53,088 nucleotides of DNA, taken from NCBI GenBank assembly GCA_018058095.1, contig JAGPCO010000044.1:1-53088 (forward strand), given 5' to 3'. The stretch is from Kofleriaceae bacterium. GTDB lineage: Bacteria > Myxococcota_A > Polyangia > Haliangiales > Haliangiaceae. The notes beneath the pieces were generated by a model. It searched no databases. It was not told the origin of the DNA and saw only the letters and a list, made by a program, of their open reading frames with translations. Positions 38,645 through 39,230 of the stretch are shown one piece after another (positions within the stretch are counted from its first letter, which is position 1; every line of letters begins with the position of its first letter). A program made the position numbers and the translations under genes.

Positions 38645-38752
38645 GGGGGCGGTCCCTGGTGGCTCGCCACCGGGACGTAGTCGTAGTCGTAGTCGTAGTC
38701 GTGGACCTTGACGGCGACGGCGACGTGGAGGTGGACGCCACCTTTGACGCAA
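38645..38752 (+). repeat. Element left end (copy C)
   Basis: GGGGGCGGTCCCTGG, then a short region unlike the other copies, four GTAGTC-type hexamers, CCTTGACGGCGACGGCGACG and GTGGACGCCACCTTTGACGCA. It shares the GGACGCC variant and CCCTGG with copy B. Confidence 0.85.
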
Positions 38753-38782
38753 CCACCGCGACGCACGGCCGATGCGCTTGGC

Positions 38783-39118
38783 ATGCTCAGCTTCCAGCGT
38801 CTCGACGTCTATCAGCGAGCCATCGAATTTCTTGCCTTGGTCTACGACCTCGTCGATGTCTTGCCGCGCGGCCATGCCGATCGCGCGGACCAGTTGACCC
38901 GAGCCGCCGAGTCCGTCGTGCGCAACATCGCCGAAGGAGCAGGCCGTTGGTCCGAAGCCGACAGCGCTAGCCGCTACAAGATCGCTCGTGGCGAAGCCAT
39001 GGAGTGCGCGGCCTCGCTCGACGTCATGAAGTTGCGCAAGCTCATCACCGAGGAGCGCTACGAACGTGGCGGCAAGCTGCTCGAAGGTGTCGTTGCAATG
39101 CTCACGAAGATGATCTGA
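38783..39118 (+). CDS. Four-helix-bundle protein (23S rRNA IVS / bAvd family)
   Basis: 111 residues. The family pattern is clear: FQRLDVYQRAIEFLALVYDL, LTRAAESVVRNIAEGAGR, DSASRYKIARGEAMECAASLD and a final helix ending LLEGVVAMLTKMI. Members are encoded by 23S rRNA intervening sequences and, as Avd, in diversity-generating retroelements; they form basic pentameric barrels that bind nucleic acid. No rRNA gene or reverse transcriptase is present here. Fifteen of its first 60 codons end in A or T, against almost none in the neighbouring rnhB, which suggests transfer. The gene lies wholly between the inverted ends of the element, and its last codons are retained in copy A. Confidence 0.9.
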   Translation: MLSFQRLDVYQRAIEFLALVYDLVDVLPRGHADRADQLTRAAESVVRNIAEGAGRWSEADSASRYKIARGEAMECAASLDVMKLRKLITEERYERGGKLLEGVVAMLTKMI

Positions 39119-39119
39119 G

Positions 39120-39230
39120 AGCTGCGTCAAAGGTGGCGACCACCTCCACGTCGCCGTCGCCGTCAAGGTCCACGACCACGACCACGACCACGACCACGAC
39201 CACGTCAACGCCTATTGGGGACACCCCCTA
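39120..39230 (-). repeat. Element right end (copy D)
   Basis: Read on the minus strand: TAGGGGGTGTCCCC, GGCGTTGACGT, five GGTCGT hexamers, CCTTGACGGCGACGGCGACG and GTCGCCACCTTTGACGCAG, reaching the gene stop. It is closest to copy A. The outer tip supplies the last seven codons and stop of the neighbouring DUF4345-like gene. Confidence 0.85.

Follow-up and report, generated by a model that had tools for sequence, protein, structure and literature searches.

The question raised by this locus is whether a small gene for a four-helix-bundle protein, held between inverted repeats, belongs to its host or to a mobile element – and, if the latter, to an element of which kind. The gene lies in a 53,088-nucleotide stretch from a Kofleriaceae bacterium (the window, by which we mean the whole stretch that was analysed), within a 586-bp unit at 38645-39230 that encodes no other product.

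The 586-bp unit and its copies

An RNase HII gene (37897-38610, plus strand) precedes the unit and a minus-strand ORF resembling a small membrane protein follows it. At its left edge stands an outer tip (GGGGGCGGTCCC; 38645-38656, plus strand) without CTAG, which, by its sequence and by the intact TIR of plain IS5 relatives, is a degenerate IS5-type TIR (consensus CTAGGGGGTGTCCC). There follow 20 remnant bases of the transposase 3' end (GGCTCGCCACCGGGACGTAG, LAAGT and a stop; 38661-38680, plus strand), one base different from a copy fused to a longer transposase fragment elsewhere in the genome (L075, G000:C201), and then the left arm (38673-38751, plus strand; 79 nt), a (GTAGTC)n hexamer array plus GTGGACCTTGACGGCGACGGCGACGTGGAGGTGGACGCCACCTTTGACGCA that has copies elsewhere in the genome. 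A leader motif, GCAAC-N16-CGATG (38749-38774, plus strand), lies before the start codon of the gene itself (38783-39118, plus strand; 111 aa), which profiles and predicted structure assign to the 23S_rRNA_IVP / S23p / Avd-like four-helix-bundle family (IVP below). The right arm (39123-39201, minus strand; 79 nt) is the left arm inverted, 92% complementary to it, and beyond it lies the right TIR (GGGGACACCCCCTAG; 39217-39231, minus strand), which includes the CTAG target tetranucleotide and forms the end of plain IS5 copies as well. Folded as RNA the element has a z of -10.5, the arms pairing into a single stem that encloses the ORF, and GC at third codon positions is 0.77 in the gene against 0.86-0.97 in its neighbors.

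These features bear out much of the original prediction, which had named a gene of the 23S-IVS/bAvd family, more AT-rich at third positions than its neighbors, between imperfect inverted repeats. Its claim that the outer tips match holds in part: the right tip is perfect, but the left is degenerate and lacks CTAG, and within the window the tip pattern by itself does not exceed chance frequency. The pattern becomes significant only because of copies outside the window and, given the state of the left tip, a clean target duplication is not seen at the window copy.

Two observations concern the setting of the unit. A minus-strand host ORF (39205-39915) crosses the CTAG of the element and ends at a stop codon that lies within the right tip; the insertion has thus altered its C-terminus. 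Further out, the element is flanked by a homologous pair of secreted metalloprotease-like genes (35912-37078 and 40591-41442, both minus strand; HELGHLIGLPH and HELGHLLGLDH).

A BLASTN search for further copies, as the original prediction had proposed, gave 94 matches in the window's own genome (G000; 7.57 Mb, 227 contigs, 97% complete), with E-values down to 6e-238 leaving out the unit itself. The matches comprise seven gene-bearing copies (whole or deleted) and many solo arms. Near-full copies are found on three other contigs at 85-93% identity and gene fragments on three more; the flanks of the copies are mutually unrelated. CTAG is present at both ends of the copies on contigs C124 and C109 and at one end only of the window copy. 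Both partial copies that had been pointed out in the window were recovered. One (9973-10161, plus strand) runs from TIR to TIR – tip CTAGGGGGTGTCCC, then the right arm, a few bases from the 3' end of the gene, a stretch of other repeat and tip GGGACAGCCCCCAGG – with the gene internally deleted; the other (16031-16135, minus strand) is, by BLASTN and sequence, a solo arm with a degenerate tip (CAGGGGGCGTCCC).

Searched against a plasmid collection, the unit matched nothing. Comparison of the window locus with 14 genus relatives that carry the RNase HII gene (65-74% DNA identity) shows that the downstream neighbor is not conserved, and thus no empty site can be drawn at this locus; a Sorangium unit compared with So ce26 matched on one flank only. 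In place of empty sites, support comes from target duplications in a sister system and from module-free IS5 copies, both described below.

The same genome holds further CTAG-tipped sequences. Divergent IVP genes within inverted CTAG, a long hairpin and (CCCGTG)n arms (L045, G000:C201:3189; L061, G000:C191:39930; and L090 in a second genome, G048) represent another type of end for the module of arm, IVP gene and arm. Other CTAG-tipped palindromic repeats (L011, L030, L012, L017 and others; CTAGCAGGATGC...GCATCCTGCTAG; CTAGTCCCCTGGAAACGTG...) are often nested beside IVP arms, and their CTAG tips frequently provide the TAG stop codon of the adjoining gene.

Transposon backbones of the IVP module

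The window tip GGGGACACCCCCTAG is the TIR of a CTAG-targeting insertion sequence of the IS5 family. The left TIR of plain IS5 relatives (CTAGGGGGTGTCCC) matches the right TIR over ~20 bases, as do the left and right ends of L196 (CTAGGGGGTGTCCCTAGTTC), L200 and L201, and GGGACACCCCCTAG is common to the window's right end and L196. In other genomes the stop codon of similar transposases is followed directly by GGGACACCCCCTAG or close variants, and relatives contain plain insertion sequences (transposase, then TIR) without the module. Since TIR follows transposase stop in the plain elements, these correspond to the module-free state, with the module sitting between the transposase stop codon and the right TIR. 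A composite that looks intact is present in a Kofleriaceae MAG (G009): CTAG-GGAGTGTCCCTGAATCGG, transposase, arm, IVP gene, arm, CCGATTAGGGACAGGCC-CTAG. Its transposase occupies two overlapping frames and matches DDE_Tnp_1 (E=4e-17).

Within G000 the left arm runs directly into a transposase 3' end (RFDKTRASYLAIVQVACICLWLAAGT, then stop) at four places. A search of this 97% complete genome with a 62-aa C-terminus as the only query turned up neither an intact transposase of matching type nor a copy longer than the 3' fragments. Since all that is kept of the transposase is a set of 3' fragments joined to the left arm, the unit would be a transposase-deleted, IVP-carrying IS5 derivative, mobilised in trans: it shares the IS5-family TIR, degenerate at the window's left end, and appears to descend from a transposase-bearing copy. 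IVP genes lying directly 3' of other transposases – IS3-type (rve) in G006 (L084/L206) and ISKra4-like in G004 (L089/L218; the label is our own reading, Pfam giving no match) – were not counted as composites, what is seen being adjacency without bracketed ends.

A second system, in a myxobacterial MAG from Lake Baikal (G098), bears on movement itself. Its units (~594 bp) carry an IVP gene and (TAGTCG)n arms; their ends, GGGTGCTTAAC...GTTAAGCACC, are unlike those of the window unit. The tip pattern has 338 matches in the G098 genome compared to none for the reversed pattern, and 10 of the 19 tip-to-tip copies examined are bounded by direct repeats of ~9 bases (mean of 0.65 when shuffled, with a maximum of 5 in 500). 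Other copies are shorter and fall into classes that share internal breakpoints (192|447 and 166|308 in full-unit numbering), by which the IVP gene is broken; these classes recur at several sites, some carrying target duplications of their own. Derivatives with a broken IVP gene have therefore moved, and the gene is not needed in cis; taken together, the target duplications and the moved deletion classes indicate that G098 units move through their ends by means of an enzyme supplied in trans. An autonomous partner of the G098 element was not found, and the sole ~2-kb tip pair inspected contained no ORF recognised as a transposase. The backbone of this system is independent of, and unrelated to, the IS5 one. 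In L142 and other G098 copies the IVP frame is open through the right arm, which adds a poly-Thr tail (ESTTTTTTTP); the arm may thus be translated in some copies.

The best explanation, to which we give a probability of roughly four in five, is that the window unit is a non-autonomous transposon: an IS5-family derivative with a module of arm, IVP gene and arm. It draws on the copies, the identity of the TIRs, the transposase composite, the target duplications of the sister system, and – taken up below – the neutral decay of copies and the selection on the gene between species. An IS5-family insertion sequence with a CTAG target and TIR GGGGGTGTCCC would have gained the module between the transposase stop codon and the right TIR; in G000 most of the transposase would then have been lost, and the shortened element would have spread in trans via its TIRs and left behind complete copies as well as deletion derivatives and solo arms, all decaying neutrally. 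The module would not be bound to one transposon, other lineages having an unrelated TIR backbone or host-gene neighbors. The best-supported step of movement is that of TIRs served by a transposase in trans. The expectation of a repeat-bounded, multi-copy unit without transposase, of a kind mobilised in trans, is thus supported by the G000 copies together with the G098 target duplications and deletion derivatives; its tips, however, are IS5-family TIRs rather than those of a new type of element, and transposase ends are still fused to the left arm at four places of the genome.

The IVP gene and its arms

The 111-aa product matches PF05635 (23S_rRNA_IVP; E=1.5e-22, 80.3 bits against a cut-off of 33.8) and TIGR02436, 'four helix bundle protein' (76.1 against 24). 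Its AlphaFold model (pLDDT 95) has the S23p fold, with TM scores of 0.84-0.89 to 2gsc (0.87 for the best-ranked chain) and 0.85-0.89 to 2rld. Against the Avd ring of diversity-generating retroelements (4DWL, 8UB7) most chains score 0.77-0.82 and one 0.71, at ~14% identity. The leader is also shared beyond the window: GCAAC is present in 30 of 75 IVP leaders compared to ~6 in shuffles and, in Myxococcota, often stands ~16 bases ahead of CGATA or CGATG.

Evolutionary rates differ with the level of comparison. Between species dN/dS is low (0.05-0.16 for the window IVP against four other genomes; 0.19 for G009 against G014), whereas among IVP copies inside one genome it is about 1 or higher (values of at least 1.1). 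Singleton changes among the G098 copies are spread over the three codon positions as 23/23/18, and nonsynonymous and synonymous counts equal the no-selection expectation; an excess of nonsynonymous changes between two G000 copies was not confirmed in this larger set, which is neutral. The IVP gene is thus under purifying selection across species while its copies inside a genome decay neutrally – the pattern of a selected source lineage shedding dead copies.

A protein profile gave 80 named IVP loci from several phyla, of which the 76 with enough flank were scored for inverted arms. Strong arms are present in 48, and the same score is reached in 3 of 1787 control pairs from those loci. Arms together with IVP occur in Myxococcota, Chloroflexi, Verrucomicrobia, Planctomycetes, Desulfobacterota and one chlamydia-like MAG. 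Arm sequences vary (GTCGTG, CCCGTG, TCGTAA, TCTTAA, GTGCTC and others), Verrucomicrobia (TCTTAATCTTAATC) and Chloroflexi (TCGTAATCGTAATCG) having repeats richer in AT, and the best repeat period is 6 or 12 in 45 of 48 cases (a slightly different set of 48, the window's own included). T outnumbers A in the upstream arm of 40 of these 48, an asymmetry relative to the gene. At GC-rich loci CTAG reaches 2.06 per kb at its peak, 100-150 bp beyond the gene, compared to a background of 0.26. Most of the units examined adjoin ordinary host genes, with no transposase next door, and IVP itself is patchy (45 of 193 relatives).

What the arms do may be approached by analogy. The Coxiella IVS has an S23p ORF between complementary termini able to form a 28 bp stem, and a solved IVP relative forms a pentameric ring, as PMC4990558 states in citing a Xanthomonas structure. 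Since the arms can pair round the gene as the Coxiella termini do, and the relative is a ring, we think that the protein acts on paired nucleic acid of this kind. We offer as a tentative proposal that the period-6 arms form a long stem bracketing the gene, either at the level of the transcript or when the DNA is single-stranded, and that the IVP protein binds such nucleic acid and helps the element to spread or to be tolerated. Mismatches between arms were sorted by type (48 sense G-U, 65 antisense, 181 other): sense G-U shows no excess, so a role of the arms at the RNA level is not supported by that test and, as the pattern does not single out mRNA, DNA hairpins remain as likely.

It might be argued that IVP and arms are an element in their own right, in which IVP binds the hexamer arms, promotes movement of the module and repeatedly settles in or beside insertion sequences. 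Such an element would account for the co-occurrence of arms and IVP in many phyla, mostly in units that have no adjoining transposase, for purifying selection between species, and for the presence of the module in both an IS5 and an unrelated TIR backbone. We nonetheless think it unlikely: a four-helix bundle has no known catalytic site, G098 derivatives that lack an intact IVP gene have moved, and sharp ends, where present, are transposase-type TIRs rather than arms.

Low dN/dS between species could also mean that IVP is a gene useful to the host (an RNA-binding regulator, for example) flanked by unstable six-base microsatellites, its mobility in two genomes being incidental hitch-hiking; some IVP genes do keep the same host neighbor in related genomes (an acetyl-CoA synthetase gene for L225 as for L227). 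This is improbable, because random microsatellites would not give inverted arms with so constant a period and orientation to the gene, and patchy presence argues against it, as does a genome that contains element ends by the hundred and copies in neutral decay.

The original prediction had also pointed to a shared Y1 (RAYT) transposase, which would make the unit REP-like. G000 does contain 37 Y1_Tnp matches, and CTAG tips are found on Y1 elements and several other repeats, but Y1 elements end in CTAGGAGTCCGACCCCGTA (also GAGTCCGACCCCGTA) and the IVP unit in GGGGGTGTCCC, so ends are not shared; the tips of the unit are those of an IS5 DDE element. Target duplications of 9 bp, as in G098, are not known to be made by Y1 enzymes. 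Mobilisation by a Y1/RAYT transposase is therefore very improbable. The multi-copy Y1_Tnp (RAYT-like) element of G000 is itself ~1.36 kb long, with ends CTAGGAGTCCGACCCCGTA / TACGGGGTCGGACTCCTAG (e.g., L187, L179, L185), and many of its copies lie at contig ends.

That the inverted arms are a chance artefact of GC-rich DNA has a negligible probability: arm sequence of the GTCGTG type is of low complexity and (GTCGTGG)n arrays are found on their own in other myxobacteria, but the same-locus controls refute a chance origin and arms also exist as AT-richer repeats.

Relation to known systems

In 23S rRNA IVSs a terminal stem encloses the S23p gene and is cut by RNase III; we know of no function for the IVS or for its S23p protein. 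Mobility of IVSs is mentioned as a hypothesis in PMC4990558, where movement of IVS/S23p, now or once, is discussed as an open question. The free-standing units described here, with their transposon ends, their target duplications and, in one genome, ends by the hundred, are direct evidence that the IVP family lives in mobile DNA. They add a protein gene to the known accessory genes of insertion sequences, and suggest that many genes carrying the annotation 'four helix bundle protein' may belong to repeat elements. A layout conserved across phyla – inverted arms, a six-base period, fixed orientation to the gene – makes the arms the candidate partner of the protein. More doubtful, although worth stating, is the idea that arm, IVP gene and arm constitute a distinct selfish module spread over several phyla, a nucleic-acid-binding ring protein with the period-6 arms on which it acts, which rides different transposons and would be the source of 23S rRNA IVSs by settling in rRNA helices. 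In the open-access literature, subscription papers being outside our scope, we found no publication that describes the arms or places IVP genes in transposons.

Four known systems invite comparison. REP/RAYT systems likewise have a gene between inverted repeats and dispersed solo repeats; the window unit differs in being without a Y1 gene, in its DDE-type TIRs, and in ends unlike those of the Y1 elements of G000. With the Avd protein of diversity-generating retroelements IVP has the four-helix fold in common; the reverse transcriptase, template and variable repeat of those systems are absent from the 586-bp unit, to which this comparison was confined. Insertion sequences of the IS5 family (CTAG/YTAR target) and their MITE-like derivatives resemble it in TIR (CTAGGGGGTGTCCC, identical to that of plain IS5 in relatives), in the transposase remnant and in the internal deletion derivatives; the unit differs in carrying an accessory gene flanked by hexamer arms in inverted orientation, and in that the search of G000 found no intact transposase. 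The closest analogue is the bacterial 23S rRNA IVS with an S23p ORF (Coxiella, Leptospira; PMC4990558), which has the same protein family and an ORF within complementary, stem-forming termini; the window unit, in contrast, lies outside rRNA and has IS-type TIRs, ~80-nt arms of six-base repeats and many dispersed copies.
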